Below are positions 30,222-47,537 of a stretch of 64,000 nucleotides of DNA, piece after piece. Both the position numbers and the translations under genes were made by a program. The number at the start of each line of letters is the position of its first letter. The stretch's first letter is position 1. The DNA comes from Verrucomicrobiota bacterium (GTDB taxonomy: Bacteria; Verrucomicrobiota; Verrucomicrobiia; Opitutales; Opitutaceae). The stretch covers positions 1 through 64,000 of the forward strand of contig VHCJ01000013.1 of the NCBI GenBank assembly GCA_016871755.1. The letters run 5' to 3'. Under the pieces are notes generated by a model. That model searched no databases and had not been told where the DNA came from. It worked only from the letters and a program-made list of their open reading frames with translations.

Positions 30222-31901
30222 ATGGCCTCCCGCCCCTCCCTTGTTCGGTGTTGGCTTCTCGGCGGCGGGTTGCTGACCGCCTCGCTCTGCGGGGTGGTCG
30301 GAGCCGCGCCGGCCGCAGAGGTGTGGGACATCGGTTCCCGCCGGGAGTTATTCGTGGAGGGGGCGTTGGTGGAGCGCCTGAGCGGGGGCGCCCAGCTGCG
30401 CCTGCACCGTCCCGTCCCGCGGGAGATGGCGATCGAGCACGATGCGCCCTGGGAGGGCACGGGCAGCGGTTACCACTCCATCTTCAAGGACGGCGACCGC
30501 TATCGGATGTACTACAGTTCCTACGAGTTGTATCTCGTGGAACTGGCGGGCGGCACGCCCCAGAGCGCGGCCCCGAAGGAACCGCACAACCTCTGCGGCT
30601 ACGCGGAGAGCAACGACGGGATCCACTGGCGCAAACCGGTTCTCGGTCTGCACGCGTTCAATGGCTCGACGGCCAACAACATCGTCATGGCCAGCGGCCG
30701 GATCGGCGGCGTGGACGCGGATGCCGCCCACCCGGCGGTCTTCCGCGACGACAACCCGGCGGCGCCCGCCGACGCGCGCTACAAGGCGATCCTGCGCTCC
30801 CGCGAGCCGCGCGGACTGCTGCCGTTCAAGTCGCCGGACGGCCTGCACTGGACGCCGATGGTGGACCGGCCAATCATCACCGATGGCGCGTTCGATTCCC
30901 AGAATCTCGCCTTCTGGGACGCCGTGCGCGGGGAATACCGGACGTACTGGCGGTACTTCGACCAAGGAACCCCGGAGAAGCCGTACCAAGGCGTGCGGGC
31001 GATCCGCACCGCGACCTCGAAGGATTTCATCCATTGGGAGAACCAGCGTGACCTGACCTACGCGGATTCCCCGTCGGAGCACCTGTACACGAACCAGGTG
31101 CTGCCGTACTACCGCGCTCCCCACCTCTACATCGGCTTCCCGACGCGGTATCGCGAGCGGGGGCACGATGATCGGGGCGATGCGCCGCATCCGGCGGCGA
31201 AACCCACGGCGGAGGAAAACCGCGCGCGCATCCAGCAGTGGTCGGCATCGCTGCGCGCACTGCCGGAACTCCGGGAGCGCGAGTTGCGCGCGGCCGCCAA
31301 CGAACGCTACGGATCCGCCCTCTCTGAGGGACTCCTGATGGCGAGTCGCGACGGAGTGAACTTCAAGCGCTGGAACGAGGCCTTTCTCCCACCGGGCATC
31401 GAGCGCGACGGTACCTGGAACTACGGTCACCAGTACCTCGCCTGGCACGTGGTCGAGACCAAGTCTGATCTCCCCGGCGCACCCAACGAACTTTCGCTCT
31501 ACGCGGTCGAGAGCTACTGGACGCCTCCCGGCAGCGCGTTGCGGCGCTACACGCTGCGGCTTGACGGCTTCGTTTCCGTGCAGGCGCCGATGTCCGGCGG
31601 CGAACTGCTCACGGTCCCGGTGCGCTTCACGGGCCGGGAACTGACGCTCAACTTCGCCACGTCCGCGGCCGGCAGCGTGCGGGTGGAACTCCAGGACCCG
31701 GAGGGCCGTCCCTATCCGGGCTTCGCCCTCGCCGACTGCCCGGCACACTTCGGCGACACCGTGGAGCGGGCGGTGACGTGGCGGAACGGTCGGGATGTCA
31801 GCTCGCTTGCCGGCCGGCCGGTTCGGCTGCGCTTCGTCCTGCAGGATGCGGATGTGTATGCCTTCCGGTTTCGCGACTCCGCCCCGACTTCGGGACCGTG
31901 A
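30222..31901 (+). CDS. Exported beta-propeller protein, GH32/GH43/sialidase-like (paralogue 1)
   Basis: 559 aa. Signal peptide in residues 1-32. The propeller part has RELFVEGALVERLSG, GYHSIFKDGDRYRMYY, and the recurring block DGIHWRKPVLGLHAFNGS with NNIVM. Later come FDSQNLAFWD, YRTYWRYF, ATSKDFIHWEN and LLMASRDGVNFKRW. A C-terminal beta-sandwich (about 455-555) has GSVRVELQDPEGRPYPGF, DC, GDT and PVRLRFVLQDADVYAFRF, shared with neighbouring paralogues. Similar proteins are annotated as hypothetical or GH32-like in PVC bacteria; whether it is hydrolytic is unknown. Nearest relative in the window is the gene at 33125. Confidence 0.75.
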   Translation: MASRPSLVRCWLLGGGLLTASLCGVVGAAPAAEVWDIGSRRELFVEGALVERLSGGAQLRLHRPVPREMAIEHDAPWEGTGSGYHSIFKDGDRYRMYYSSYELYLVELAGGTPQSAAPKEPHNLCGYAESNDGIHWRKPVLGLHAFNGSTANNIVMASGRIGGVDADAAHPAVFRDDNPAAPADARYKAILRSREPRGLLPFKSPDGLHWTPMVDRPIITDGAFDSQNLAFWDAVRGEYRTYWRYFDQGTPEKPYQGVRAIRTATSKDFIHWENQRDLTYADSPSEHLYTNQVLPYYRAPHLYIGFPTRYRERGHDDRGDAPHPAAKPTAEENRARIQQWSASLRALPELRERELRAAANERYGSALSEGLLMASRDGVNFKRWNEAFLPPGIERDGTWNYGHQYLAWHVVETKSDLPGAPNELSLYAVESYWTPPGSALRRYTLRLDGFVSVQAPMSGGELLTVPVRFTGRELTLNFATSAAGSVRVELQDPEGRPYPGFALADCPAHFGDTVERAVTWRNGRDVSSLAGRPVRLRFVLQDADVYAFRFRDSAPTSGP

Positions 31902-31941
31902 CGCGGCTTTGGGTCTTCGAGCCTGAGACAGTGCCTTCGCC

Positions 31942-33030
31942 ATGATTGACCTGACCCGACCGCCGGCCCGAGGCCCCGCCACTCAGACGGTGGAGGATGA
32001 CCCGGGCCTCGACTGGGTCACGGCTCCGGACTGCGCGCTGGATGCGCCGCCTGATGCCACGTCCGATCCCGCGCCGGAGGCCACGAGGTCACCCGCGGAA
32101 CTCCGCACCGGGGTCGGAGCCGTCGTGGCGCCGCGGATCGTGCGGCTTCCCGGAGGCTCCTACCGGATGTACTACACGCAGGTGCTGGCGAGGCCCGGCG
32201 TGCCGGAGGGGGCCCGGGACTTCGCGAGCGCGACCGCCCGAATTCTCAGTGCGAGCTCGATCGACGGGGAGACATGGACGCCGGAACCGGGGGTGCGTCT
32301 CTCGGCGGCCGATGGTGGCGCCGGCGAGTTTCGCGTCATTGTCGGTGACGCATTCCCGCTCGATGCCCCCGGGCGCCTCTGGCGGATGTACTATGAATGC
32401 ACGGATGAGCCCCGGATGGACGCCACCCGGATCCTTTCCGCCCGGTCCGACGACGGCGGCCTGACCTGGCGGCGGGAACCGGGGGTGCGACTCGGCGAAC
32501 CGGGACGCAGCTTCGTGACCCCGCGGGTGCTGTTCCTTCCGGACGGAGGCCTCAGGTTGCTCTGTGCCGAACGGGGACGCGGCATCATCAGCGCGCGCTC
32601 CCACGATGGCGGAACGACGTTTGCGGAGGAGCCCGGGATCCGGGTTGCGGCGGATGGACCCTACGACGCGGCGACCGCGTACGCGCCGGAGGTCGTCCGC
32701 GTCGCGGGCGGTGGCTATGTGATGTACTACGCCGGGTACGAGACTCCTGATCGCGCGCACATCCTCCGGGCAGAGTCCACGGACGGTCTGACGTGGCGCA
32801 AGGTGGCGCGGCCGGTCATCTCGCCCGGCGGCTCGTGGCTGAGCGCGGCGAAGTGCTCCGAGATGTGCCTCGTCACGTTGCCGCCGGGGATCGGCAGTCG
32901 GCCGCGGTACCGGCTCCTCTACGAAGCCTGCGACGGCGCGGCGGCACGCGTTCGTGGGGTCTGGCGGATCGCCAGCGCCTCCCCGCGGCCGTCGGACTCC
33001 ACCCGCGTCGAACCGTCCTCCCCGCCCTGA
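31942..33030 (+). CDS. Beta-propeller protein without signal peptide (sialidase/arabinanase-like fold)
   Basis: 362 aa. Repeated short blades include YRMYYTQV, ILSASSIDGETWTPEPGVRLS, LWRMYYECTD, ILSARSDDGGLTWRREPGVRL, IISARSHDGGTTFAEEPGIRV, YVMYYAGYETPDRAHILRAESTDGLTW. These are BNR-like S/A-x-D-G-x-T-W turns alternating with M-Y-Y strands. Unlike the flanking paralogues it has no signal peptide and no C-terminal beta-sandwich, so it is predicted cytoplasmic. It could be a glycoside hydrolase or phosphorylase of the GH43/GH130-like fold. The gene lies 40 bp after the previous one. Confidence 0.7.
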   Translation: MIDLTRPPARGPATQTVEDDPGLDWVTAPDCALDAPPDATSDPAPEATRSPAELRTGVGAVVAPRIVRLPGGSYRMYYTQVLARPGVPEGARDFASATARILSASSIDGETWTPEPGVRLSAADGGAGEFRVIVGDAFPLDAPGRLWRMYYECTDEPRMDATRILSARSDDGGLTWRREPGVRLGEPGRSFVTPRVLFLPDGGLRLLCAERGRGIISARSHDGGTTFAEEPGIRVAADGPYDAATAYAPEVVRVAGGGYVMYYAGYETPDRAHILRAESTDGLTWRKVARPVISPGGSWLSAAKCSEMCLVTLPPGIGSRPRYRLLYEACDGAAARVRGVWRIASASPRPSDSTRVEPSSPP

Positions 33031-33124
33031 ACCGCCTCCGCCGCCTCGGCGACCGTCCGCCCGCGCGTGAGCGAACGGGCCGACCCTGAGGCCGGCCCTG
33101 AGTGACCCCTCTATTCCCAATCCC

Positions 33125-34693
33125 ATGAAGACCTCCCTCGTGCTCCTCAGTCTCTTGACCCTCGGGTCCGCCGCGGCGGCGGCGCCGATCGACATCGGTG
33201 GCCGCCGTGAACTGTTCGTCGACGACGTCCTCATCGACCGCCTATCCGGCCGGGCCGAGCTCCGGCTGAACGAACCGATCCCCCGCGAAGTGGTGCTGAG
33301 CCACGATGAACCGTGGGAAGGAGCGGGGAGCGGTTACCACAGCGTCTTTCAGGACGGGCCTCTCTATCGCATGTACTACAAGGCGTGGCAGCGCACGGCG
33401 GGTCCGGGCACGCCGAACGGCGACCCTGAGCCCCTGTTTTGCTGCTACGCGGAGAGCGACGACGGCATTCACTGGCGGAAGCCGGCCCTGGGCCTGTTTG
33501 AATTCCAAGGCTCCAAGGCCAACAACATCGTGATGGCCACCGCGCAGGTTGGCGCATTGCACGTCGATGCCGGCCATCCGGCGGTCTTCAAGGACCTCAA
33601 TCCCGCCGCTCCCGCGGATGCGCGCTACAAGGCGTTCTTCCGGTCCGACGCGCCGTGGGGCAAGGAGAGCGCTGATCGGCCCCGCGGACTCCTCGCGTTC
33701 AAGTCCGCCGACGGCATCCGCTTCACCCCGATGGTGCCGGATCGTCCCGTGATCACCAACGGAGCCTTTGACTCCCAGAACCTCGCGTTCTGGGATACCG
33801 TCCGCGGTGAGTACCGCGCCTACTGGCGATACTTCCAGCGGAACAACGACGGCAGCAAGGGGGGCGCGACCCCGACGGGCTCGCGGGCGATCCGCACCGC
33901 GACCTCGAAGGACTTCATCCACTGGCAGGGCGAGGAGAACGTGCACTACGTCGACTCGCCGGAGGAGCAGCTCTACATCAATCAGATCAAGCCGTATCCG
34001 CGTGCTCCGCACCTCTTCATCGGGTTTCCCGCGCGCTACCTTGACCGCGGCTGGTCGGAGGAGATGCGTGCGTTGCCGGAGCGGGAGCACCGCGAGTGGC
34101 GGGCTGGGATCCTCGCGCGCCTCGGCACCGCGTTGACCGACTCGCTCTTCATGGCCAGTCGCGACGGCGTGAACTTCAAGCGCTGGAACGAAGTCTTCCT
34201 GCGCCCCGGGCCGGAGCGACCCGGTGCATGGACCTACGGTCAGACCTTCATCGCCTGGGAGCCGGTGATCACGAAGTCCTCCCTGGAAGGGGCGGCGGAT
34301 GAACTTTCGCTCTACATCAGCGAAAGCTACTGGAGCGGGCGGTCCGGCAGCACGGTGCGCCGGTACACCCTGCGGCTCGACGGCTTCGTCGCCCTGCGCG
34401 CCCCGATGGCCGGGGGCGAACTGCTGACCAAGCCCGTGCGGTTTGCGGGGTCTGCGTTGTCGCTCAATTTCGCCACGTCGGCGATCGGCAGCGTGCGGGT
34501 GGAGTTGCAGGACGAATCCGGCCGGCCGCTGCCGGGCTTCGCGCTGGAGGACTGCGCCCCGCTCTTCGGCGACACCATCGACCGACGCGTGCGCTGGAAG
34601 GGCGGCTCGCTCGCGGCGCTCGCCGGCCGACCGGTGCGCCTGCGTTTCGCAGTGAGCGACGCGCAGCTGTACTCCTTCCAGTTTCAGCCCTGA
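33125..34693 (+). CDS. Exported beta-propeller protein (paralogue 2)
   Basis: 522 aa. Signal peptide in residues 1-20 (SLLTLGSAAAAA). It parallels the gene at 30222 throughout: GGRRELFVDDVLIDRLSGRAELRL, GYHSVFQDGPLYRMYY, DGIHWRKPALGLFEFQGS, NNIVM, FDSQNLAFWD, ATSKDFIHWQ, LFMASRDGVNFKRWNEVF and the C-terminal sandwich ending PVRLRFAVSDAQLYSFQF. At DNA level a 43-nt stretch (33883-33925) differs at only two positions from 30995-31037. This points to duplication or gene conversion. ATG is preceded by CCCAATCCC, with no Shine-Dalgarno. Confidence 0.75.
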   Translation: MKTSLVLLSLLTLGSAAAAAPIDIGGRRELFVDDVLIDRLSGRAELRLNEPIPREVVLSHDEPWEGAGSGYHSVFQDGPLYRMYYKAWQRTAGPGTPNGDPEPLFCCYAESDDGIHWRKPALGLFEFQGSKANNIVMATAQVGALHVDAGHPAVFKDLNPAAPADARYKAFFRSDAPWGKESADRPRGLLAFKSADGIRFTPMVPDRPVITNGAFDSQNLAFWDTVRGEYRAYWRYFQRNNDGSKGGATPTGSRAIRTATSKDFIHWQGEENVHYVDSPEEQLYINQIKPYPRAPHLFIGFPARYLDRGWSEEMRALPEREHREWRAGILARLGTALTDSLFMASRDGVNFKRWNEVFLRPGPERPGAWTYGQTFIAWEPVITKSSLEGAADELSLYISESYWSGRSGSTVRRYTLRLDGFVALRAPMAGGELLTKPVRFAGSALSLNFATSAIGSVRVELQDESGRPLPGFALEDCAPLFGDTIDRRVRWKGGSLAALAGRPVRLRFAVSDAQLYSFQFQP

Positions 34694-34799: not shown

Positions 34800-36548
34800 A
34801 TGAAGCCGATCGCCTCACGCTCCCTGTTCCTTGCCGTTGTGCTCGCGCGGTTGCTTGCTCCCGCCGGCGCGGCGGCGGCGGACCTCGATGCCAGCCGCTG
34901 GCAGCTCTTCATCGACGACCACGCCATCGCGCGAGCCACCGGACTGGACCGGGTTGTGCATCGTCCGCACTGGCGCGGGGTGGTGATCGACGCCGACCGG
35001 CCCTGGGAGACGCACGGCGTCCAGCCCGTCTTCGTGCACCGCCGGTCGGACGGCTCGTTCTTTGCGTACTACAGCGCCATCTGGTGGGTGCCCGGCACGG
35101 ACGCGCGTTCCGCCACCCTCGACCAGATCGTCCATGTGGACGGAGCGTGGCGGACGCGGGCGCCGGATGCCCGGCCGCAGGACCGCGATCAGCAGTACGT
35201 GGTGTCGGGTGCCTTCGCGACGAGCCGCGACGGCATTCACTGGGAGAAGCCGGCCCTCGGCCGTTGGGAAGGGCCGACCGGCACCGATTGGAAGCGGCAT
35301 GCGCCGTTTCCGCACCCCATGGGCGTCAGCCGCGCCAACAATCTTGAACTTCCCTTCAGCATTCACGACCTCGGCGGTCATGGCGGCGTCACCGATCCCG
35401 CACGCCGCTTCGCCCTCGGCTTCGGGGGAAAGGCGTACTTCACGGCTGAGTTGCCGGACTTCCTTGGCGACCCCGACTGGCGCTCGAAGCTGACGCCGGC
35501 CGACGGCAGCTTCAGCACGCGCGGCAATCTCCTGAGCTTCTGGGACGCGGCGCATCAGGAGTGGGTGGCGATGGTACAGAACACCATCCCGTATTGGCTG
35601 CCCTCACGGCAGATCGCCCGCTTTGCGTCGCCGGACCTCAAGGTGTGGCGCTCCGACATTGCTCTGGTGCCGGATTCCGCGGATCCGCATCGGCCCGACC
35701 AGTACGTCGAGCCCATGTTCCTGAACGGCTTCGTGGACGACGGACTCACCCTCGGGCTGCTGAGTTGGTTCCATGGTGACCGCACGGGTCCGGATGGCGG
35801 CCCCGTGATGGATCCCGCGTCGCCGCAGATGCAGGGTCGGACCCAAGGCTGGCCCTTTCCCACGACACCGGCGAATCCCTTCGTCTGGCCTTGGGCGCGG
35901 AAGGGAACCACCGAGATCCGCATCACCCTCAGCCGCGACGGGGGCAAGTCGTGGGACCGCACCTCAAGTCGCACGGCGTGGATACCGCACGGCACCGAGG
36001 AGGACAGCGTTGACCGCATGGCCTTTCTGCCGATCCCGCCGGTCCGAGTCGGTGACGAGGATTGGTTCTACGTGGGCGTGAGTGACGGCGATCACCTCGC
36101 CTCGCGGGCGAACGCGGAACGGACTCCCTACTACCGGGACCGCCTGCGCCGCGGACGCATTGCACTCTACACCCAGAAGCATCACCGGTACGTGAGTCTC
36201 CGCGCGGGTACGCAGCGCGAGACGCTCATCACGCGGCCCTTCACCGTGAATGGAGATGAGCTCATTCTGAACGTCGATGGCAGTCGGGGTCGGGTGAGGG
36301 TCGGACTCTATGAGGACAAGCCGGTGTTGACCCTCCGCGGCACGACCCTCAGCTCGGATCCGCATCTCATGCAGGAAAACGTCTTGCCCGGGTTCTCGTT
36401 GCTGGAGAGCGAGCCGGTGGAGGTGAATGCCAGCGCGCACACCGTCCGATTCAAGGGGGGCGCCAGCCTCGCCGCGCTCCGGGGCAAGCGGGTCATCCTC
36501 TTCGTGGAAATGGTTGATGCCAACCTGTTCGGGTTCAGGATTCGGTGA
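34800..36548 (+). CDS. Exported beta-propeller protein (paralogue 3)
   Basis: 582 aa. Signal peptide in residues 1-26. The first mature residues are ADLDASRWQLFIDDHAIARATGLDRVVHRPHWRGVVIDAD, almost the same as the minus-strand gene at 45777-47537, with which it aligns over its full length. The block DGIHWEKPALG recurs, then GNLLSFWDAAHQEWVAMVQN, PFVWPWARKGTTEIRITLSRDGGKSWDRTSSR and a C-terminal sandwich ending RVILFVEMVDANLFGFRIR. It sits 106 bp after paralogue 2; the leader before ATG is GCCTCCC. The next gene begins 4 bp after its stop. Confidence 0.75.
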   Translation: MKPIASRSLFLAVVLARLLAPAGAAAADLDASRWQLFIDDHAIARATGLDRVVHRPHWRGVVIDADRPWETHGVQPVFVHRRSDGSFFAYYSAIWWVPGTDARSATLDQIVHVDGAWRTRAPDARPQDRDQQYVVSGAFATSRDGIHWEKPALGRWEGPTGTDWKRHAPFPHPMGVSRANNLELPFSIHDLGGHGGVTDPARRFALGFGGKAYFTAELPDFLGDPDWRSKLTPADGSFSTRGNLLSFWDAAHQEWVAMVQNTIPYWLPSRQIARFASPDLKVWRSDIALVPDSADPHRPDQYVEPMFLNGFVDDGLTLGLLSWFHGDRTGPDGGPVMDPASPQMQGRTQGWPFPTTPANPFVWPWARKGTTEIRITLSRDGGKSWDRTSSRTAWIPHGTEEDSVDRMAFLPIPPVRVGDEDWFYVGVSDGDHLASRANAERTPYYRDRLRRGRIALYTQKHHRYVSLRAGTQRETLITRPFTVNGDELILNVDGSRGRVRVGLYEDKPVLTLRGTTLSSDPHLMQENVLPGFSLLESEPVEVNASAHTVRFKGGASLAALRGKRVILFVEMVDANLFGFRIR

Positions 36549-36552
36549 TGCC

Positions 36553-38007
36553 ATGGCCGCGAGAGCACCCTTCCGCCGGGACTGGGCGCGGATCCGCGAC
36601 GCGATGAGCACGGTCCCGGCCACGCTTCTCCGGGCCGTCCTGCTGCTCGCGTCAACTCTGGCGGCTGCCGCCGGAGAAACGCTGCTGCTCCTCGACGATC
36701 GAGTGGTGGAGCGTGCGGACGGTCTCCGGCTGCGCGTCGGGACGGTGGTCAAGCACCCAGCCAGTCCGCTCTTCGGCGAGGACCGACCGTGGGAGGTGCG
36801 TCTCGACAACGGCTACTTCAACCTCGTGCGGGATGAGACCACCGGCGCGTATCAATGCTGGTACAGTCCCTTCATCGTCGATGAACTCACGACCGGCACC
36901 CCGGAGGCCCGGCGGGCGGCGGTCCGCTACCGTTCGACCCCGACGCGGGAGATGGGCCTGTGCTACGCGGTCTCGCAGGATGGCCTGCGGTGGGAAAAGC
37001 CGGAACTGGGCCTCGTGGAATTCGGCGGGAACCGCGCCAACAATCTCGTGATGCGCAGCGTGCATGGCGCCGGCGTGCTCGAGGATCCGCTGGACCCGGA
37101 CCCGGCGCGTCGCTTCAAGGTCTTCGGCGGGGAGCAGATTCCCGGTCGTCCCCGGCGTTTCCAAGTGGCGTTCTCGCCCGATGGGCGGCGCTGGTCCGCC
37201 CCGATCGTCAGCATGGAGATCGGGGTCACGGGCGACACGCACAATGTGGCGATCTGGGCGCCGGAACTCGGCCGCTACGTCGGCCTGACCCGTCGCTGGC
37301 TAGCGGGCCAGCGGCTGGTCATGCGCTCCGAGAGCGCAGACTTCACCCGTTGGAGTCCAGCGGTCGAGGTCATGCGTGGGGATGAGGTGAATCAGACCTA
37401 TGCGCTGACGGTCTTCCGGCACGCCGACCGGTACCTTGGCTTGCTCATGGTCATGAACCAGCAGACCGACCGGGTGCACTGTGAACTCGCGTGGAGCCCG
37501 GATACGGTCCGTTGGCACCGCATCGATCCGGGCCGCGCGCTGATTCCCGTGAGCGAGTCTCCGGGCACCTACGACTGGGGATGCGTCTATGCAGCCAGTG
37601 GCCCGGTCTTCGTCGGTGACGAGGTGCGTCTCTACTACGGTGCGTCCAACGGCCCGCACACCGGATGGCGCCACGGCTTCCTCGCGCTCGCGACCCTGCC
37701 GCGGGACCGGTTCGCGGGTTACGTCGCAGGAGGCGAGGAGGGCGTCTTGGTGACGCGCCCGGTCACGCTCGGACCGAGAGGCTTGACGGTCAACCTTGCG
37801 GCCACCGAAGGCACCGCAACGATGGACATCCTTGACGAGAGCGGCAGCCCGGTTCCGGGTCTGCGCGCGCAGTGGTTGGGAGCGGACGGTTTGCGGTTGG
37901 AGCCGCGATGGGAATCCGCCGGAGAATCAGCGAGTGTGGCTGGGCGCACGGTGCGGCTTCGGTTCCGGCTGCGGAATGCGACGCTCTACGCGGTGGATCT
38001 GCTCTGA
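36553..38007 (+). CDS. Exported beta-propeller protein (paralogue 4)
   Basis: About 484 aa from ATG 36553; ATG 36604 would give a shorter signal peptide (STVPATLLRAVLLLASTLAAAA) and is equally possible. The propeller includes LLDDRVVERADGLRLRVGTV, YFNLVRDETTGAYQCWYSPF, CYAVSQDGLRWEKPELGLVEFGGN with NNLVM, DPDPARRFKVFGG, VAFSPDGRRW and YLGLLMVMNQQTDRVHCELAWSPDTVRW. The C-terminal sandwich ends TVRLRFRLRNATLYAVDLL. DPDPARRFK is also found in the gene at 44051 (DPDPRRRFK), linking those two. Function is unknown beyond the fold. Confidence 0.72.
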   Translation: MAARAPFRRDWARIRDAMSTVPATLLRAVLLLASTLAAAAGETLLLLDDRVVERADGLRLRVGTVVKHPASPLFGEDRPWEVRLDNGYFNLVRDETTGAYQCWYSPFIVDELTTGTPEARRAAVRYRSTPTREMGLCYAVSQDGLRWEKPELGLVEFGGNRANNLVMRSVHGAGVLEDPLDPDPARRFKVFGGEQIPGRPRRFQVAFSPDGRRWSAPIVSMEIGVTGDTHNVAIWAPELGRYVGLTRRWLAGQRLVMRSESADFTRWSPAVEVMRGDEVNQTYALTVFRHADRYLGLLMVMNQQTDRVHCELAWSPDTVRWHRIDPGRALIPVSESPGTYDWGCVYAASGPVFVGDEVRLYYGASNGPHTGWRHGFLALATLPRDRFAGYVAGGEEGVLVTRPVTLGPRGLTVNLAATEGTATMDILDESGSPVPGLRAQWLGADGLRLEPRWESAGESASVAGRTVRLRFRLRNATLYAVDLL

Positions 38008-38275
38008 AGGGTATGGGGTGGGAGCGCATTTCTCGTCCCGCCTGCAGATGTGCCGGATCCGCGGACGCTGGAGCGTCGCTTGCCTGGAGCGATCGGAGCG
38101 GAGTGAGATGGCGTGACGATCCGACAGCCCGGTTCGGTTGTCGGGCGGTCATTTGGGCTGACCAGTGTTTTCGGTTTGTCCACGGGCTGGGCGTGGTTCC
38201 GCTTGTACGGTCGTAGCGGTTCGCCCGATTCGCCGGAAGAGACCCCGCCGGACGACTTGCCCCGCCACCCTGACC
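38008..38275. other. 268-bp intergenic region with hairpin and candidate operator C
   Basis: Holds a GACGC-TGGA-GCGTC hairpin (38064-38077), which shares the CGC-TGGA-GCG core with the third hairpin at 30170-30183, and CTGACCAGTG at 38158-38167, the reverse complement of CACTGGTCAG found at the 47.6-kb site. No gene is supported. Confidence 0.5.
38158..38167 (-). promoter_or_regulatory. Candidate operator C (half-site)
   Basis: On the minus strand this reads CACTGGTCAG, identical over 10 bases to the 47.6-kb site and over 9 bases (ACTGGTCAG) to the site upstream of the TonB receptor. It lies about 110 bp before the exported Gfo/Idh gene. A 10-mer match alone is weak evidence. Confidence 0.3.
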
Positions 38276-39445: not shown

Positions 39446-40768
39446 ATGAATCCCCTCCCTCCCTCGGCCGCTTCTGTCCTCACCCGTCGGCAAGTCCTGC
39501 ACCGTGCCGCGCTCGTCGGTCTCGGAGCGGGTGTTTCCGGCGCGCTCAGTCCGGTCAGCCTCCGTGCCGCGAATGCAGCCGGCCGCAAGCTGCGGGTTGC
39601 GGTCATGGCCCTGGGCCGCGGCATGGCGCACATCCGGGCGCTGCTGGCGCTGCCGGACGTCGAGATTGCGTACCTCGCGGAGGTTGACCCCGTGCGGCTC
39701 GCCGCCGGGCTGAAGCTGGTGGGCGAAACGCAGCCGGCCCCGTGCAAGGGAGTGGTCGATTTTCGGACCTGCCTGGAGGATAAGACGCTCGATGCTCTGT
39801 TCATTGCGGCGACGAACTTCTGGCACACGCCGGCGGCGCTGCTTGCGATGCAGGCGGGGAAGCACGTCTACGTCGAGAAGCCCGGCAGCCACAATCCGTA
39901 CGAGGCCGAACTGATCGTCGCCGCGACCCGCAAGTACGGCAAAGTCGTGCAGATGGGCAACCAGCGGCGCACGTGGATGCGCGAGGCGATTGCGGCCCTG
40001 CACGCCGGGGCCGTGGGCGAGGTCCGCTTTGCGCGTTCGTTCTACTACGCCTCCCGCGGGTCGATTGCGACGCCGTCGCGGCCCGCCTCGCCCGATCTCA
40101 ACCTCGATCTCTGGCAGGGTCCGGTGGCTGACGAACCGGGTCGCGAACTCAGCAAGTTCGTTCACTACAACTGGCACTGGCTCTGGCACTGGGGTAACGG
40201 CGAGCTGGGCAACAACGGTGTCCACACCCTCGACATCCTGCGGTGGGGCCTGCGGGTGAACTACCCGCGCCGCATCACCTACAACGGCGGTCGCTATTGG
40301 CACCGGGATCCGCAGGAGACGCCCGATACCGGGACCGCGGTCTTCGACTACGGGCACTGCGGCATGGAGTGGGTCCAGAGCAGCTGCGTCCCGCGGATGG
40401 CGGAAAAGCCGACGGCGGAGTGCATCTTCTACGGCGACAATGGTACGTTCGCGATCACGGGTGGCACCACGACGGGCTGGACGGTCTACGACCCGAAGGG
40501 CGTGAAGGTGAGCGAGGGCAAGGGCCCGAACGCCGGTGATCCCGCCCACTTCGGCAACTTCCTTGAGGCGATCCGTGGCAACGCCACGCTGAACAGCCCG
40601 ATCGCGGAGGGCCAGATCAGCGCGATGCTCTGTCACCTCGGCAACATTGCCTACCGGACGAACGTGACCGTCCAGTGCGATCCCGACACCGGCCGGATGA
40701 TCAACCACCCCGCAGGTGAGAAACTGTGGAAGCGGCCTTACCGCAAGGGCTGGGAGCCCGTGCTCTGA
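39446..40768 (+). CDS. Tat-exported Gfo/Idh/MocA family oxidoreductase
   Basis: 440 aa. The N-terminus has a twin-arginine signal, LTRRQVLHRAALVGLGAGVSG (residues 12-32), implying export after folding with cofactor. The Rossmann loop is ALGRGMAHIRAL, and the catalytic Lys lies in VEKPGSHNPYEAE (near residue 147). The C-terminal half has NWHWLWHWGNGELGNNGVHTLDILRWGL, typical of the large Tat-secreted Gfo/Idh group abundant in Verrucomicrobiota and Planctomycetota, and C-terminal PYRKGWEPVL. It probably acts on a sugar or glycoside in the periplasm. The leader is pyrimidine-rich (CCCCCGTTGTTTCC). Confidence 0.92.
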   Translation: MNPLPPSAASVLTRRQVLHRAALVGLGAGVSGALSPVSLRAANAAGRKLRVAVMALGRGMAHIRALLALPDVEIAYLAEVDPVRLAAGLKLVGETQPAPCKGVVDFRTCLEDKTLDALFIAATNFWHTPAALLAMQAGKHVYVEKPGSHNPYEAELIVAATRKYGKVVQMGNQRRTWMREAIAALHAGAVGEVRFARSFYYASRGSIATPSRPASPDLNLDLWQGPVADEPGRELSKFVHYNWHWLWHWGNGELGNNGVHTLDILRWGLRVNYPRRITYNGGRYWHRDPQETPDTGTAVFDYGHCGMEWVQSSCVPRMAEKPTAECIFYGDNGTFAITGGTTTGWTVYDPKGVKVSEGKGPNAGDPAHFGNFLEAIRGNATLNSPIAEGQISAMLCHLGNIAYRTNVTVQCDPDTGRMINHPAGEKLWKRPYRKGWEPVL

Positions 40769-40886: not shown

Positions 40887-42008
40887 CTAGCGCGGTCGCG
40901 GAACCTCGAGGGCGCGGATGGCGTCGAGGTCAAGGTCGAGGCCGAGGCCCGGGGCGTCGGAGACCTCGAAGCAGCCGTCGACCAGGGGCAGGGGGGCGCG
41001 GAGCAGGCCGGACATGAAGGGGTTCTCCGTCACGTCGAACTCCACCATCGGCGTGCCGACCCCGGGCATGAGTGTCGGCTCAGGCAGCAGGGCGGCGAGG
41101 TGGATCGTGGCGGCGTTCAGGATGGCGCCGTTCCACGAGTGGGGGATGCACTGCACGCCGTAGAGTTCGGCCAACTCGGCGATGAACAGCAACTCGCGGA
41201 TCCCGCCGCACAGGCTGGCGTCGGGCTGGATGATATCGACGGCGCGGCGGTCGAGCAGTTCCTTGAAGGCCTGCCGGTGGAGGAGCATTTCCCCGCCGGC
41301 GACGGGGAGGTCGAGTTGCGCGGTGAGCTCGGGGTAGCCGCGGTAGCCGAACTGCGGCATCGGTTCCTCGAAGAACGTGATTCCGATCTTCTCGAGCTCG
41401 CGCCCGACCATCAGCGCCGTCGACAGGGTGTAGGAGCCCCAGCCGTCGACCAGCAGCTTGACGTCGGCGGGCAGGGCGGCGCGGACCGCGGCGAGGACCG
41501 GCAGTTCCTCCCGCGGATCGTAGCGACCGATCTTCAGCTTGATCGCCCGGAAGCCCCGCGCGACGAACTCCTTCGTCTCGGCCGGCCACGCGTCGGCGGG
41601 GTGCACGTCCTTGCGGTAGGCACCGGAGGCATACACCGGCACGCGTCTGCGGCGCGCACCACCGTAGAGCTGGTGCACCGGCACGCCCAGCGCCTGCCCG
41701 ATGAGGTCGTGGAGCGCGAGATCGATGGCGCCGATGGCGAGACGGTTCTCGAAGGGCGCGAGCCAGCGGGTGCGCCAGGAGTTGCCGACGTCGCGCGGGT
41801 CGCGGCCGACGAGCGCCGGAGCGTAGACGGCGTCGATCGTCTCGCGGGTGCCGGCCATCGGCACGGTCTCGCCCCAGCCGGTCAGCCCGGTGTCGGTGGT
41901 GAGGCGGACGAGCAGGTTGCGGCGGAATTCGTTGAACGAGGACGCCGGCCCGGTCGGGTGGGAAAGCTTGTGCTGCAGGAGGAAGGTTTCGACGGAGGTG
42001 ATCTTCAT
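40887..42008 (-). CDS. Mandelate racemase/muconate lactonizing (enolase superfamily) enzyme
   Basis: 373 aa from ATG 42008, where the capping domain begins (MKITSVETFLLQHKL). The barrel has the IKLKIG lysine pair near residue 160, metal ligands LLVDGWGSY (Asp), FFEEPM (Glu) and VAGGEML (Glu), then DIIQPDASLCGGI and PHSWNG, whose His suggests the mandelate racemase subgroup. Members dehydrate acid sugars or epimerise alpha-hydroxy acids in the cytoplasm. With the UxuA-like and uronate-dehydrogenase-like genes in the window, a sugar-acid dehydratase is a reasonable guess. The longer in-frame extension upstream has no homology and was not used. Confidence 0.9.
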   Translation of the reverse strand: MKITSVETFLLQHKLSHPTGPASSFNEFRRNLLVRLTTDTGLTGWGETVPMAGTRETIDAVYAPALVGRDPRDVGNSWRTRWLAPFENRLAIGAIDLALHDLIGQALGVPVHQLYGGARRRRVPVYASGAYRKDVHPADAWPAETKEFVARGFRAIKLKIGRYDPREELPVLAAVRAALPADVKLLVDGWGSYTLSTALMVGRELEKIGITFFEEPMPQFGYRGYPELTAQLDLPVAGGEMLLHRQAFKELLDRRAVDIIQPDASLCGGIRELLFIAELAELYGVQCIPHSWNGAILNAATIHLAALLPEPTLMPGVGTPMVEFDVTENPFMSGLLRAPLPLVDGCFEVSDAPGLGLDLDLDAIRALEVPRPR

Positions 42009-42449
42009 GGCGGCAGCCCGCGTGGGCGGGGGAGGGGGAACGCGGAGACCATTCCGCACCGCGGACCACCGGTCCAGCTTCGTACACTGGTCATCCGACG
42101 TGCCCAGTCTCGCGACGCCGGGCCGCGGCCGGGGGACGAACTGCCCAGCGCCGGAGCCGATCCCTTGGTGCGGAACGGCGCGTCGATGGCCGGGAAGGCG
42201 TCGGGACACTGTCGGCGAAGCGATCGTGGCGAAGAGTGGTGGGCGTCACGCCCGTTGGCGCGACGCGACGTTGTGGCCACGCCCAGACTGGATCGCGGGT
42301 GCCTTATCCGGAGCCGGCGCCTCCTGACGAGGATCGGATCATTCGGATCTGCGTCGACCCAACCGCAGCGCGCTGACGGAGCAATGCCGCCGGCGTGGCG
42401 GGCGGCGCGATTCTTGACCCGGCGGGCCGGGCGGGGCTAGCGTCGTCGG
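42009..42449. other. 441-bp divergent intergenic region
   Basis: Separates the enolase-family gene from the amidohydrolase gene. No coding sequence is supported. A possible promoter for the amidohydrolase is TTGACC (42414-42419) with TAGCGT (42438-42443) 18 bp downstream. Nothing else recognised. Confidence 0.5.
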
Positions 42450-43565
42450 GTGATTTCCGCCCCCCTGTCGTCCGGATCGACCGCCGTGGGCGCCCGCGTG
42501 CGGGCGATCGACACGGATGCGCACCACCAACTCCGCGGCATTGCGGACCTCAAGCCCTACCTATCGCGGCATGACTGGCAGCGGCTCGAGGAATTCGGGA
42601 TGCCGCGCAACAGCAACCTGTACCAGGCGAGCGGTGGCTTCCGCGGGGCGCGCGCGGACTGCTTTGGTGCGGGCGACGACGTGGATCCCCGTTCGCGGAT
42701 CGCGCTCTTTCAGGAAAAGCTGCTCGACGGCTGCGGCGTCGACTTCGCGATTCTGCAGGGCGAGTACACCCCGGCGGTACTGGCCCTGGCCGACCTCGAT
42801 TTCTCGGCGGCGCTTTGCCGCGCGACGAACGACTGGACGCTGGCGGAGTGGGTGGGCCGAGACCCGCGGTTCCGGCTCGCGCTGACGGTCCCGATCCAGG
42901 ATCCGGTGCTTGCGGTGCGGGAGATCGAGCGCCTCGGCGACCATCCTGCGGTGGTGGCGGTCTACGCCGTGTGCGGCTCCCCGCGCCTGTATGGGCAGCG
43001 CCACTACGACCCGGTCTTTGCAGCGTGCGTGAAGCACGGTCTGGCGCTCGCGCTGCACTTCAGCAACGAAGGCATCGGGATGAATCCGGCGCCGACGGCG
43101 GGCGGGCATCCGTCGTACTATGCGGAGCAGTACCTCGTGCGGCCGCAGTTCTATCAGGCGCACCTCTCCAGCTTCCTCTTCGAAGGCACTTTCGAGAAGT
43201 TCCCGCAGCTGAGGGTGGCGTTCCTCGAGTCGGGCTTCGGCTGGGTCCCGGCGTTCCGCTGGCGGGCGGATGCGACCTGGCGTTCCCTGCGGGCGCAGAC
43301 ACCGTGGGTGAAGCGGCCCCCGAGCGAGTACATGCGCGAGCACATCCGCTTCGCGACGCAGCCCTTCGAGGACCCGGAACCGGCGGGGGCGCTGACGGCG
43401 GTGCTCGACGGCATGGACGCGGAGCAGACCCTGATGTTTTCCAGCGACTTCCCGCACTGGGATTTCGACCCGCCGGATGCGATCGTGCGGCGCCTGCCGG
43501 AGTCGTTGCGCCAGCGCGTGCTCGTCGAAACGGCCCTGGAGACCTACCCCAAGCTGCCCCGATGA
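42450..43565 (+). CDS. Amidohydrolase family 2 (ACMSD-like) metal-dependent hydrolase
   Basis: 371 aa, GTG start. The barrel opens with AIDTDAHHQLRG, the metal-binding strand (D/H rather than the more usual HxH), includes VAVYAVCGSPRLYGQRHYDPVFAAC, HFSNEG and RVAFLESGFGWVP (near residue 260), and ends with MFSSDFPHWDFD, whose Asp is the usual catalytic residue. The family covers decarboxylases and hydrolases of aromatic or lactone substrates. The stop overlaps the Rieske protein start (ATGA). An amidohydrolase-Rieske pair is a recurring gene neighbourhood; the reaction is unknown. A start slightly downstream is possible. Confidence 0.88.
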   Translation: MISAPLSSGSTAVGARVRAIDTDAHHQLRGIADLKPYLSRHDWQRLEEFGMPRNSNLYQASGGFRGARADCFGAGDDVDPRSRIALFQEKLLDGCGVDFAILQGEYTPAVLALADLDFSAALCRATNDWTLAEWVGRDPRFRLALTVPIQDPVLAVREIERLGDHPAVVAVYAVCGSPRLYGQRHYDPVFAACVKHGLALALHFSNEGIGMNPAPTAGGHPSYYAEQYLVRPQFYQAHLSSFLFEGTFEKFPQLRVAFLESGFGWVPAFRWRADATWRSLRAQTPWVKRPPSEYMREHIRFATQPFEDPEPAGALTAVLDGMDAEQTLMFSSDFPHWDFDPPDAIVRRLPESLRQRVLVETALETYPKLPR

Positions 43566-43993
43566 GCGTCGGCGAAGCCAGTGGCGGCGGTCGCACGCCT
43601 CACCCGGTGTGTGCGGCGGCCGAATTGCCGCCGGGGCGGCGGCGGATCGTGACGATCGAGGGGAAGTCGATCGGGGTCTTCAACGTCGGCGGCCGCTACT
43701 TCGCGCTCCGCAATCGTTGTCCGCACCGCGGCGCGCCGCTCTGCGAAGGGCAGGTGGTCGACCTCGTCACGGCTCCCGCGCCGTACGCGTGGGAGAACGA
43801 ACGGTTCGGCGAGATCATCCGCTGCCCGTGGCACAGCTGGGAATTCGACCTGACGACGGGCCGTTCGGTGTGCCACCCCGACAGCATCCGAACGAAGAGC
43901 TACCCGGCGGGCGTGGCGGCGCCGACGGAGCACGACCGCGCGGAGGCCTACGAGGCCGCGGAGCGCGGCGGCGTGGTGGTGGTGTGGGTCTGA
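43562..43993 (+). CDS. Rieske [2Fe-2S] ferredoxin-type protein
   Basis: 143 aa. The cluster ligands are clear: Cys53 and His55 in RCPHRGAPLCEG, Cys88 and His91 in CPWHSWEFDLTTG. It is a soluble electron carrier without membrane helix or catalytic domain. Overlap of its start with the amidohydrolase stop suggests co-translation. It may bring electrons to a mononuclear iron enzyme encoded elsewhere, or act structurally with its partner. Confidence 0.93.
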   Translation: MSVGEASGGGRTPHPVCAAAELPPGRRRIVTIEGKSIGVFNVGGRYFALRNRCPHRGAPLCEGQVVDLVTAPAPYAWENERFGEIIRCPWHSWEFDLTTGRSVCHPDSIRTKSYPAGVAAPTEHDRAEAYEAAERGGVVVVWV

Positions 43994-44050: not shown

Positions 44051-45577
44051 TCAGGGAGCCGAGCCGGCGACATACACGGCGTACAACCGCACGTCTTCCG
44101 GCCGGACGCCCTCGATGCTCACGCTGAGGTGAAAGAGGCTGCCGTCGGCGGGAAGGGTCGTGCCGGACTTCCAGCGCACCGCCTCCCGGAAACCGTCGGT
44201 CGAGAGCACGGCGGCGTCCGCGCCGCTGTAACCGGCCACCGGACGGAAGCCGCGGTCGAGCAGTTCGATCCGCAGGCGCGCGTTCGGGCCGAGCCCGGAC
44301 ACGTTCACGAACGCCTCCACCGTGCCGGCCGCAGTTTGGAGCGCGCGGGACACGGCGCGTGCCGGTGCACCCCGGAACGGCTGGAGCGCGCCGAGTCGGT
44401 CCCGCGGCCAGGTCACGAGACGCACCCCGCTGCCTTGGTTACCCCGCCAGAGCGAGTACCAGTACAGCGTTTCGTCGCCGACGTTCTCCATGCCCTGTCC
44501 CTGCTGGAGGGCGGGGGCGACGCCGACGGGCCGGCCCGGTTGTTCCCGGGCGGGCACGATGCGGAAGTTGGGAATCGGTTCGTGGAAGTGGATGCCGTCG
44601 TGCGTCAAGGCGAGCCCGAGGTCGATGGCGGCGTCGCCGCGGTCGCCGGTCGCTGCGCCGTGCCACATGCCGTAGATGCCGACGAGGACATTGCCGCGGT
44701 TCCACAGCGCCGCCCCGAGATGGATCTCCTCGTACTGGTGGAGTTGATCATCGGCGCTTGGCCCTCGCAGGTCGGGTCCGCGGTCCAGTCCGACGGCCCC
44801 GGCCGGCGACCAGTGCTCGAAGTCGGCCGAGACGAAGGTCACGAGCCGGCGCACCGGGACGGGACGGTGGACGGTGAGACCGGCCTGCCCGTTCACGTAG
44901 AAGAGACCCTGGTGCTTGGCGATCCCCGCCATCTCGAGGAACGGCCCGACGGGGTTGCGCGGCGATGGAGTCCAGCGCAGACCGTCCGGGCTGAAGGCGA
45001 CGGAGAGGCGCAAGCCGTCCGCGTAGCGGGCGGTGTATGCGATCTTGAACCGGCGCCGCGGGTCCGGGTCCTCGGGGTCGTGCACGACCGCGCCCGTCGA
45101 CCACAGCGTGGGCTCCGGGAGGTCGACGATGTTGTTCTCGCGGGAGCCGTTGAACGAGACGAGGCCGAGGTTGGGCTTGGTCCAGTTCACGCCGTCCTTG
45201 CTCGTCGCGTAGGCGAGGACGCACTTCTCGCGCTCGAATCCGGTCAGCGGGCGCAGCGGACCGTGGTTGCCGTTGTACCAAAGGTGGAACGTGTCGCCGA
45301 TGCGGATGACGCTGCCGTAGTAGAGCAGGGCCTCGTCGTGGGAGCCCGGGGGGCCCGGCGGGATGACGAGGCGCGGCTTTTGGCCGGTGAACAGGCGCGT
45401 CTCGACGTTGTCGCGGAACGGGAAGGCCCGGTCATCGAAGCCGAAAAGCACCGCTTCGGAGAAAGGACCCGGCGCCGGGGCGCCGGGCAGGCCGACCCGG
45501 CCGACGGTGCCCGCGGCGTGCAGGAGGCTGGAGGTGAGCAGGGCGAAGGCGACAAGACGGGGAAGGAACGCGTTCAT
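44051..45577 (-). CDS. Exported beta-propeller protein (paralogue 5)
   Basis: 508 aa from ATG 45577, where the signal peptide starts (MNAFLPRLVAFALLTSSLLHAAG). The propeller has HDEALLYYGSVIRIGDTFHLWYNGN, YATSKDGVNWTKPNLGLVSFNGSRENNIV, DPDPRRRFKIAYTA, VAFSPDGLRWTPSP and HYSP-like strands. The C-terminal sandwich has ARLRIELLDRGFRPVAGYSGADA and ends VRLYAVYVAGSAP. The DGVNWTKPNLG...NNIV block shows relation to the plus-strand paralogues. It is on the opposite strand, forming the far side of the locus. The frame continues upstream of ATG 45577 but lacks family similarity there. Confidence 0.72.
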   Translation of the reverse strand: MNAFLPRLVAFALLTSSLLHAAGTVGRVGLPGAPAPGPFSEAVLFGFDDRAFPFRDNVETRLFTGQKPRLVIPPGPPGSHDEALLYYGSVIRIGDTFHLWYNGNHGPLRPLTGFEREKCVLAYATSKDGVNWTKPNLGLVSFNGSRENNIVDLPEPTLWSTGAVVHDPEDPDPRRRFKIAYTARYADGLRLSVAFSPDGLRWTPSPRNPVGPFLEMAGIAKHQGLFYVNGQAGLTVHRPVPVRRLVTFVSADFEHWSPAGAVGLDRGPDLRGPSADDQLHQYEEIHLGAALWNRGNVLVGIYGMWHGAATGDRGDAAIDLGLALTHDGIHFHEPIPNFRIVPAREQPGRPVGVAPALQQGQGMENVGDETLYWYSLWRGNQGSGVRLVTWPRDRLGALQPFRGAPARAVSRALQTAAGTVEAFVNVSGLGPNARLRIELLDRGFRPVAGYSGADAAVLSTDGFREAVRWKSGTTLPADGSLFHLSVSIEGVRPEDVRLYAVYVAGSAP

Positions 45578-45776
45578 GGCTGGAAGGGATGGACGGGTCG
45601 CGGCCGTGGTGTGGGTGGAAGCCGATGAACGGCCCCGTTGATGACTGATTGGCGGAGGCGCCGTACGCGCTACAATCACACTCTCGCCGCTCGCGTTGGC
45701 AGATTCGCTTGGCGGCGGCGGTGCGCGCCGGCGGGTGTCGCAGTTGGGCCCGGCGGCCGCGCCGCGACCGGCGCAC

Positions 45777-47537
45777 TCAGCGAAGCCGGAAACCGTAGAG
45801 GTTTGCATCGGTCATCTCCACGAACAGGACGACGCGGCGGCCGCGCAGGCCGGCGAGGCTGGTGCCTTCGGCGAAGCGGACCGGGTGCTCGATCGCGTTG
45901 GCCGTGATCGGCGCGCCGTCCGACAGCGCGAAGCCCGGCAGGACGTTCTGCGTCATCAGGTGCGGGTCGGAGCTGGGCGTCGTGCCCTTGAGCGTGAGGA
46001 CCGGCTTGTACTCGTAGATGCCGACGCGGACCTGGCCGCGGCTGCCGTCGACGTTGATTTGCAGCGTGTCGCCGGTCACGACGAACGGCTTCGTGATCAG
46101 CGTCTCCCGCTGGGTCCCGGCGCGCAGGCTGACGTACCGGTGATGTTTCTGCGTGTAGAGCGCGATGCGTCCGCGCCGGAGGCGGTCGCGGTAGTAGGTT
46201 CCCATCTCCCGGTTGGCACGCACGGAGAGATGGTCGCCGTCGTGGACTCCCACGTAGAACCAATCCTCGTCCCCGACCCGCACGGGCGGACCGCCCCAGA
46301 TCACCATCCGGTCGATGCTGTCCTCCTCGGTGCCGTGGGGGATCCAGGCCTCGCGGCTGGAGGTCCGATCCCACGAGCGCCCACCGTCGCGGCTGATCGT
46401 GATGCGCAGTTCGTTGGTGCCCTTGCGGGCCCATGGCCAGACGAACGGATTTTGCTCGCTCGTGGGGAAGGGCCAGCCCTGCGTCCGCCCCTGCATTTCC
46501 GGGGCGGAGGGATCGAGCACCGGCCCGCCGTCGGGATCGGTCCGGTCGCTGTTGAACCAGCTGAGCAGTCCCAACACCACGCCGTCGGTTGCGTAGGGGA
46601 ACAGCATCATCGGCTCCGCATAGTGGTCGGGCCGGTGCGGGTCGGCGGCATCCGGCACCAAGGCGATATCGGAGCGCCATTCCTTGAGGTCGGGAGAGGA
46701 GAAGCGCGCGATCTGGCGCGAGGGCAGCCAGCGGGGAATGGCGTTCTGCACCATCGCCACCCACTCCTCGTGCAGCGGATCCCAGAAGCTGAGGAGATTG
46801 TGGCGCGTGCTGAAACGCCCCTCGACCTTGATCAGCTTCCCCCGCCACTCCGGATCGCGTGCGGGATCCGGCAAGTCCGCCGCGAAGTACGCCTGACCCC
46901 CGAAGGTGACCGCGTAGCGCCGGGCGGGATCGCTGACTTGGCCGTATTGACCGAGGTCCGCGAGCACGGCGGGCGCACCTAGGTTGTTGTCGCGGCTGCT
47001 CCCGGTGGGGGACGGGAACGGCGCGTGGGTGTGCGGATCGACGCCCGTCGGGGCGTCGACCAACCCGAGGCGCGGTTTCTCCCAGTGGATGCCGTCGCGG
47101 CTGGTGGCAAACGCATCGGTCTCCACGTACTGCTGGGCGCGGTCACGGGGCCGTGGGTCGGGCACGCGGGTCCGCCAAGCGCCGTCTGCGTACACGACCT
47201 GGGAGTGATTTGCGGAGCGCGCGTCCGTGTTCGGAATCCACCACTGCGCGGTGTAGTAGGCGAGAAAGGTCCCGTCCCCGGTGCGTCCGACGAAGGCCGG
47301 GCGGACGCCGGAGGTCTCCCATGGTTGGTCGGCGTCGATCACCACGCCCTGCCAGCGCGGCCGATGCACGACCCGGTCCAGCCCCGTGCTTCGCGCCACC
47401 GCATGATCATCGAGAAAGAGCTGCCACTGGGCGGCGTCGAGGTCGGGCGCGGCGCCGGCCTCGGCCAGCGCCGCCAACCCGGCGAGGGCGAGGCCATGAA
47501 CGCTGAACGTTTTCGCCTGGCGGTTCCAGCGGTGCAT
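45777..47537 (-). CDS. Exported beta-propeller protein (paralogue 6)
   Basis: 586 aa from ATG 47537 (signal region RQAKTFSVHGLALAGLAALAEAGA). It aligns along its whole length with paralogue 3 (34800): LDAAQWQLFLDDHAVARSTGLDRVVHRP, DGIHWEKPRLGLVDAPTG, HNLLSFWDPLHEEWVAMVQN, PFVWPWARKGTNELRITISRDGGRSWDRTSSR, GRIALYTQKHHRYVSLRAGTQRETLI and VVLFVEMTDANLYGFRLR. The long identical stretches suggest a recent duplication with inversion. The signal peptide is only moderately hydrophobic, so export is likely but not certain. Candidate operator B lies about 60 bp upstream. Confidence 0.75.
   Translation of the reverse strand: MHRWNRQAKTFSVHGLALAGLAALAEAGAAPDLDAAQWQLFLDDHAVARSTGLDRVVHRPRWQGVVIDADQPWETSGVRPAFVGRTGDGTFLAYYTAQWWIPNTDARSANHSQVVYADGAWRTRVPDPRPRDRAQQYVETDAFATSRDGIHWEKPRLGLVDAPTGVDPHTHAPFPSPTGSSRDNNLGAPAVLADLGQYGQVSDPARRYAVTFGGQAYFAADLPDPARDPEWRGKLIKVEGRFSTRHNLLSFWDPLHEEWVAMVQNAIPRWLPSRQIARFSSPDLKEWRSDIALVPDAADPHRPDHYAEPMMLFPYATDGVVLGLLSWFNSDRTDPDGGPVLDPSAPEMQGRTQGWPFPTSEQNPFVWPWARKGTNELRITISRDGGRSWDRTSSREAWIPHGTEEDSIDRMVIWGGPPVRVGDEDWFYVGVHDGDHLSVRANREMGTYYRDRLRRGRIALYTQKHHRYVSLRAGTQRETLITKPFVVTGDTLQINVDGSRGQVRVGIYEYKPVLTLKGTTPSSDPHLMTQNVLPGFALSDGAPITANAIEHPVRFAEGTSLAGLRGRRVVLFVEMTDANLYGFRLR

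Follow-up and report, generated by a model that had tools for sequence, protein, structure and literature searches.

A cluster of secreted-looking five-bladed propeller proteins beside a TonB-dependent receptor in an Opitutaceae bacterium: candidate glycosidases without a name in Pfam or NCBIfam

Described five-bladed propeller enzymes and the cluster

The five-bladed beta-propeller is the common fold of the GH130 beta-mannoside phosphorylases and hydrolases and of the enzymes of GH32 and GH43. Characterised GH130 phosphorylases are cytoplasmic and their catalytic Asp sits in a DPR motif, and GH32 enzymes have a C-terminal beta-sandwich after the propeller. In the Verrucomicrobia a soil clone has provided the five-bladed beta-galactosidase Lac161_ORF10, with an enolase-superfamily gene in its presumed operon (PMC5342196; this and the other papers cited by PMC number are taken from excerpts). 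Here we describe a gene cluster at 27.8-47.6 kb of the window, by which we mean the whole 64,000-nucleotide stretch analysed (positions 1 to 64,000 of contig VHCJ01000013.1, our G000:C13), from a Verrucomicrobiota bacterium of the Opitutaceae whose genome assembly (GCA_016871755.1) comprises 3.67 Mb in 144 contigs. The cluster contains the genes of a TonB-dependent receptor, of seven propeller-like proteins (g1 to g7) and of two Gfo/Idh proteins. There is also a member of the enolase superfamily, on the opposite strand, and a PF04909 gene with a Rieske gene behind it. The cluster had been picked out from the sequence alone (the original prediction, below). We hold it to be somewhat more probable than even that six of the propeller proteins form an uncatalogued five-bladed family and act as secreted glycosidases that supply an oxidative sugar catabolism.

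The propeller family, its fold and candidate active site

Open reading frames (ORFs) were present at all seven propeller positions, and six of the genes, g1, g3, g4, g5, g6 and g7, belong to one family. With a profile built from 57 sequences, all from other genomes, these six were matched at E 3e-35 to 4e-247. The profile matched neither the TonB receptor nor the two Gfo/Idh proteins, the PF04909 protein (P0010) or any of 11 reversed controls. On the plus strand are g1 (30222..31901, E 4e-247), g3 (33125..34693, E 2e-239), which served as reference, g4 (34800..36548, E 2e-40) and g5 (36604..38007, E 7e-65; the ORF opens at 36427 and 36604 is the likely start). The minus strand carries g6 (44051..45577, E 3e-35; ORF opening at 45808, likely start 45577) and g7 (45777..47537, E 9e-44; ORF opening at 47579, likely start 47537), the latter in opposite orientation to g4. 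The members g4, g6 and g7 are divergent. By blastp, g1 and g3 are about 58% identical and g4 and g7 about 72%, and the remaining pairs about 23-31% across at least 200 residues.

When the window is translated in six frames, the motif DG..W.[KR]P.LG is found six times; each of the six genes has one copy (at residue 132 in g1), and 7000 shuffled proteins gave none. Of 71 aligned family members 62 have the motif, as do 19 of 30 sequences from the own genome, among which g2 and fragments are counted. The original prediction had counted seven paralogues, six of them exported, most with this block (there with KP only) followed by NNxV and with a C-terminal sandwich ending in L/V-Y/F-x-F. Signal-peptide-like N-termini, judged by eye, are indeed present on the six family genes, and the block is followed by NN[I/L] in all six. 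The tail was confirmed for g1, g3, g4 and g7, whereas g5 and g6 end in L-Y-A-V. The count of clear paralogues falls to six, as g2 (31942..33030, plus strand) lacks the motif and a visible leader, is only marginal with the outside profile (E 4e-4) and matches BNR_2 weakly (E 4.6e-6, below the cut-off); from its sequence, g2 looks like a related propeller of the Asp-box/BNR type.

Neither Pfam nor NCBIfam gave a match above cut-off for g1 and g3 to g7. Far below the cut-off, the NCBIfam model for beta-1,2-mannobiose phosphorylase was matched by g1 (E 0.021) and g6 (E 0.13), and g5 had a weak BNR_2 match (E 0.013). PF04041 (GH130) was not matched up to E 1 in the six window members or up to E 0.01 in the 71 family members, PF04616 (GH43) was absent from both sets, and PF00251 (GH32) was not matched up to E 1 in the window members. 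Among the 71 members Pfam gave two weak GH32N matches (best 7.9e-5) and one match to a twin-arginine translocation (TAT) signal. A PDB sequence search with g3 found no close relative, and a plasmid collection contained one match of 30% annotated as a hypothetical protein. As predicted, the Pfam scan of the locus proteins brought up neither SusD nor a glycoside hydrolase signature above cut-off; for the Rieske gene, NCBIfam alone was used. Going by these searches the family has no name in Pfam or NCBIfam, though a CAZy number is possible.

By profile comparison with the PDB, the family came closest to the beta-1,2-mannobiose phosphorylase 7fip (E 1e-8), followed by 6n1a, the N-acetylgalactosamine (GalNAc) deacetylase of Flavonifractor plautii (E 2e-7), another mannan phosphorylase (E 1.5e-5), and putative glycosidases and fructofuranosidases (E 3e-4 or worse). 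Against a GH130 alignment of 26 sequences, hhalign gave E 2.3e-8 with a probability of 95, compared with a probability of 42 for GH43. The AlphaFold model of g3 (pLDDT 91.8, pTM 0.91) consists of a five-bladed propeller and a strand-rich C-terminal region. When this model was aligned with VIA-align, the 1,2-beta-oligomannan phosphorylase 9gph was on top (Z 24.2, rmsd 3.2, 282 residues), tied with 6n1a (Z 23.8) and BT_0996 (Z 23.6), and the GH43 xylosidase 8hcj (Z 21.9) and GH32-type enzymes (Z about 20) scored lower. The model of g4 is weaker (pLDDT 71.8, pTM 0.80) and of the same fold class as g3, matching the GH130-type phosphorylase 7fir with Z 20.4 (rmsd 3.4, 269 residues). This comparison of models, proposed as a check in the original prediction, thus placed both proteins as five-bladed propellers near GH130, GH43 and GH32.

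The best match in both fold and profile was therefore to GH130 (9gph and 7fip, which we take to be members). The family differs from it in having no Pfam GH130 match, in looking secreted and in carrying an additional C-terminal domain. From GH32 and GH43, which share the propeller, it is set apart by the scarcity of GH32N matches (2 of 71) and by the low hhalign probability for GH43. Lac161_ORF10, compared by its description in the excerpts only, has in common with our proteins the phylum, a five-bladed propeller outside named domains and an enolase-superfamily neighbour, and differs in its reported DUF377 membership, not seen in the six genes, and in the KDP/RDP tripeptide, found among them only in g7 (residue 241). 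Beyond that report no described five-bladed family was recognised in the open-licence literature searched for the phyla concerned. GH173 was considered as a literature lead and discarded, since it belongs to clan GH-A according to excerpts of PMC8810776, and the excerpts of PMC8857213, which deals with sulfated methyl pentoses and the Verrucomicrobiota, yielded nothing on propellers, on lactonases or on unknown proteins. On the models, the fold class itself is known, and the family would be a variant within it if CAZy does not name it already.

It is this fold that makes a secreted glycosidase our best guess. The same comparisons bear on the idea that the propellers remove substituents from glycans, as deacetylases, esterases or the like, in the manner of the five-bladed F. 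plautii enzyme. With 6n1a as second-best profile match and tied for the best fold there is some ground for it, yet the identity to 6n1a is 12%, GH130-type structures score equally or higher, and activity is not set by fold likeness; we regard substituent removal as improbable.

Two acids are nearly invariant across the 71 sequences and lie four to seven residues ahead of predicted inner strands, namely E65 (E in 67, D in 3) and D216 (D in 69). Also near-constant are Y284 (70) and R254 (71). D157, which lies in FKDLNP and was set by hhalign against YDPR, was considered as the counterpart of the GH130 catalytic Asp and found unlikely from the strand boundaries of the g3 model. Several observations at this level count against a common glycosidase activity. 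At the position of E281, the third candidate acid, no more than 52 of the 71 sequences have E, hhalign gave no convincing match to the GH130 DPR motif, and none of the family members found has a known activity. Furthermore, the position of D216 is occupied by S in g4 and g7 and by E in g6 (in the own-genome alignment of 30, which takes in g2 and fragments and omits the member on contig C42: D in 21, E in 4, S in these two, missing in 3), and the activity of these three proteins may therefore differ or be lost. Such differences between subfamilies at candidate catalytic positions, along with the lack of any matched catalytic motif and of SusD among the locus proteins scanned, would also suit non-catalytic glycan-binding proteins that replace SusD-like surface binders beside the TonB receptor. 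We consider glycan binding alone unlikely, because the near-invariance of E65 and D216 and the dehydrogenase, sulfatase and dehydratase neighbours suggest enzymes, and the near folds among those listed are mostly enzymes.

Neighbouring genes in the window and in relatives

Codon-position GC supported the cluster ORFs as coding, with the Rieske ORF not picked by that script. The predicted presence of a TonB receptor, two Gfo/Idh proteins and an enolase-family enzyme agrees with the domain matches (plug, PF01408 and MR_MLE_C). The TonB-dependent receptor (27809..30073, plus strand; Plug domain E 3.1e-14) has homologues beside family members in four loci, L021, L022, L023 and L203, at 81, 75, 58 and 53% identity, respectively. 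L021 and L022 come from metagenome-assembled genomes (MAGs) of Opitutaceae, the nearest named relatives, where the g3 orthologue is 85-86% identical and the order is TonB-sulfatase-g3-Gfo1-Gfo2; L021 continues after the Gfo pair with PF04909 and Rieske genes. In L023 the order is TonB, g3-like gene, sulfatase, g1-like propeller and then the contig end, and genome G153 has TonB, a pair of propellers and sulfatase, in this order. Thus, TonB, propeller and sulfatase occur together in all four of the examined loci that have a TonB protein at least 50% identical, and the Gfo pair in two of them. The sulfatase genes lie at 6264-7976 (L021), 6278-7945 (L022), 8881-10545 (L023) and 4359-5942 (L203); the cluster in the window is itself without a sulfatase. 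A sulfatase link across the whole family was rejected, since the fetched flanks of 14 of 79 named relatives have one and, in the 38 loci with full flanks, 7 genes lie under and 5 over 3.5 kb, which is no clear enrichment; we retain the link for those four loci alone that have a close TonB receptor. The own genome has 24 sulfatase match pieces, and C29 is the only contig where one is shared with a family gene.

Gfo1 (38276..39388, plus strand; ORF opening at 38165, likely start 38276) has a leader by eye and matches PF22725 (E 2.1e-25) and PF01408 (E 2.4e-11); its orthologues beside g3 in L021 and L022 are 85-89% identical. The match of Gfo1 to the Rossmann profile (PF01408) begins only at position 20, and the nucleotide-binding glycine loop looks degenerate by eye, though the protein is kept in L021 and L022. 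Gfo2 (39446..40768, plus strand; PF19051 and PF01408) has a twin-arginine-like leader by eye and is related to glycoside 3-dehydrogenases, matching NCBIfam NF058561 (BT_2158 family) at E 1e-26 with 93.6 bits against a cut-off of 750, and the PDB entries 8tdf (E 2.2e-19) and 2ixa (E 9.1e-11).

The enolase-superfamily gene (40887..42008, minus strand; MR_MLE_C E 1e-56) encodes a sugar-acid-dehydratase-like enzyme. Its ORF opens at 42209, and homology starts only at residue 68, for which reason the start was put near 42008. Matches to the NCBIfam arabinonate and galactonate dehydratase models (E 2e-53 to 2e-49) were all below cut-off, and the nearest PDB entries were 4ggb and next 5olc, a galactonate dehydratase. 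Genes of this kind were counted near family genes in the own genome, of which 5 kb around family genes make up 5.0%. Four of 13 MR_MLE_C genes lie within 5 kb (expected 0.64, p 0.003; p 0.011 at 10 kb; one below-cut-off match, on C5, is omitted), as do three of 11 DHDPS genes (expected 0.55, p 0.015; p 0.038 at 10 kb). These p-values are modest and carry no correction, and clustered genes enter them as if they were independent. On contigs C14 and C32, propellers stand beside DHDPS-type and PF04909 genes. An enrichment was also obtained with PF04909 (4 of 16 at 5 kb, p 0.0068; pooled 11 of 40, p 2.7e-6) and was set aside as evidence, because PF04909 mixes hydrolases and oxygenases such as P0010. 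The 3-keto-disaccharide hydrolases (PF06439) were tried as partners and rejected, as only one of 10 pieces in the genome, C33:12184, lies within 5 kb. There is a precedent for non-phosphorylative sugar-acid pathways that run in parallel and use many paralogues of the enolase type (excerpts of PMC10444878).

The neighbourhood also provides points that speak against one pathway fed by glycosidases. Besides the weakness of the p-values just given, the linked genes are scattered among the 79 relatives (MR_MLE in 15, DHDPS in 5, Gfo/Idh in 7 and TonB in 4), no Gfo/Idh pair was seen near the propellers of G153, and the fetched flank of L022 shows no oxygenase gene. Ten of the 15 MR_MLE relatives belong to one Prosthecobacter-like group, and all five DHDPS genes are within 3.5 kb. 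In a Prosthecobacter-like group (L024, L027-L032, L034, L037, L039-L041) varying subsets of three neighbours are found upstream of the propeller, namely a gene resembling galactonate dehydratases, a transporter of the MFS type close to the galactonate family and a protein with weak resemblance to ceramidases.

The pair of P0010 (42450..43565, plus strand) and the Rieske ORF (43562..43993, plus strand) was present as predicted, and the hydrolase reading of it did not hold. P0010 matches PF04909 (E 5.6e-34) and, in the PDB, SfbO (8sm6, E 1.1e-93), then 8sm7, 8sm9, 6m1w and 8sm8. SfbO-type proteins are amidohydrolase-related dinuclear oxygenases that were found through adjacent small Rieske proteins (excerpts of PMC10811679). 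With the metal ligands of AibH2 as template (excerpts of PMC7782822), motif and spacing gave D23, H25, H203, E260, D333 and H336 in P0010, i.e. three His and three carboxylates, plus D338 as the extra acid of dinuclear members. The neighbouring ORF has the C-x-H...C-x2-H motif (CPH, CPWH) of a Rieske [2Fe-2S] ferredoxin and is a candidate electron donor; it matches NCBIfam ferredoxin models below cut-off, and its orthologue in L021 (13603-14019) matches PF00355 (E 3.8e-20). Based on the SfbO match, the ligand residues and the adjacent Rieske ORF, P0010 and its partner are most likely a monooxygenase system of the amidohydrolase-fold, dinuclear (ARO) type and not a lactonase. They resemble SfbO, AibH2 and PtmU3 in sequence, ligand set and Rieske neighbour and differ from them in their setting among secreted-looking propellers and sugar enzymes. 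A methyl-sugar substrate is our guess, by analogy with the demethylation of 6-O-methyl-galactose by a P450 (excerpts of PMC10033563).

Outside the cluster, the left flank is an ATP-grasp/Alpha-E pair, and further out on the right is a class I (E/Q-type) tRNA synthetase. A tRNA-Asp gene (50185-50261) near the right end of the cluster is a possible integration site, and a heparinase II/III-type protein is encoded at 16728-19385, about 8 kb upstream of the TonB gene.

Expansion and distribution of the family

In the own genome the family profile gave 33 match pieces, which after merging amount to about 30 genes or parts of genes spread over 14 contigs. Six of these genes are on C32 (19.75 kb; L189), together with a TonB receptor and with DHDPS-type and PF04909 genes. 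For comparison, the same genome had one GH130 and two GH43 matches, counts that cover these two glycoside hydrolase families only. Across the phylum, the family was found at E <=1e-10 in 32 of 145 genomes, the own genome included; at most 10 candidates were scored in each genome, and per-genome counts are lower bounds. The named relatives are the best 80 of 273 confirmed (79 loci) and no census of taxa; most of them are MAGs of Verrucomicrobia and Planctomycetes, some carry the label of a different phylum, and a few are isolates, among them Brevifollis gellanilyticus and Parapedobacter soli. In the tree, g3 groups with L021 and L022 (support 100/100) and next with L023 (97/86), and the partner of g1 is L074 (99/97), which belongs to another lineage and is 72% identical to it. 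With g4 as query, a match at E 1e-20 was obtained among the 145 genomes only in its own. As g3 is syntenic with its relatives, the nearest gene to g1 is from another lineage and the g4/g7 pair was seen at E 1e-20 in this genome alone of the 145, the paralogues are not the product of one local burst.

These mixed origins raise the question of whether the cluster is a patchwork, in which TonB, g3 and the Gfo pair form one module and g1, g2, g4 to g7, the enolase and the oxygenase are separate arrivals without a common pathway. The foreign affinity of g1, the g4/g7 type, matched at that threshold in no other of the 145 genomes, the opposite strand of g6, g7 and the enolase, and the L022 flank without the oxygenase would all fit such an origin. 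It is opposed by L021, where Gfo1, Gfo2, the oxygenase and the Rieske gene stand next to g3 in unchanged order, and by the clustering of family genes elsewhere in the genome, with the six on C32. We see the patchwork as possible, and as less likely than secreted glycosidases acting in one pathway.

Proposed role of the locus

In the pathway that we infer, as regards the activity of the propellers as glycosidases, their export, the succession of steps, the substrate and the participation of all genes, a glycan fragment would enter via the TonB receptor and be cut in the periplasm by the propellers, most likely in an exo-acting manner; these would be five-bladed enzymes with a strand-rich C-terminal domain, related to GH130, GH43 and GH32 and outside them. 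The two exported Gfo/Idh proteins would oxidise the glycoside or the released sugar, and a cytoplasmic enolase-superfamily dehydratase would handle the sugar acid. The dinuclear oxygenase with its Rieske partner would add an O2-dependent step, perhaps the removal of a methyl or similar group. The nutrient-acquisition locus of the original prediction is likely and is partly borne out: a carbohydrate role fits the fold, the TonB-propeller association in four relatives, the Gfo pair in the two nearest and the excess of MR_MLE and DHDPS genes around propellers of the own genome, and the amidohydrolase/Rieske part of it becomes an oxygenase. The further suggestion of that prediction, that each paralogue would handle a different linkage or modification, is so far a conjecture. 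One may speculate further, with little expectation of being right, that such uncatalogued secreted glycosidases are a main glycan-cutting toolkit of the lineage, acting on decorated glycans (sulfated in the relatives, oxidised or O-methylated here) pre-oxidised by exported Gfo/Idh proteins, and that the oxygenase-Rieske pair demethylates sugars as the P450 does in degraders of algal polysaccharides.

The TonB-propeller-Gfo/Idh grouping, kept in the nearest relatives, is a compact experimental system, and the oxygenase-Rieske pair offers a testable guess at the natural substrate class in an oxygenase family with few characterised members. If the propellers are enzymatic, a large carbohydrate-active family in Verrucomicrobia and Planctomycetes has been overlooked by Pfam and NCBIfam, and glycan degradation by these bacteria would be underestimated by standard annotation.

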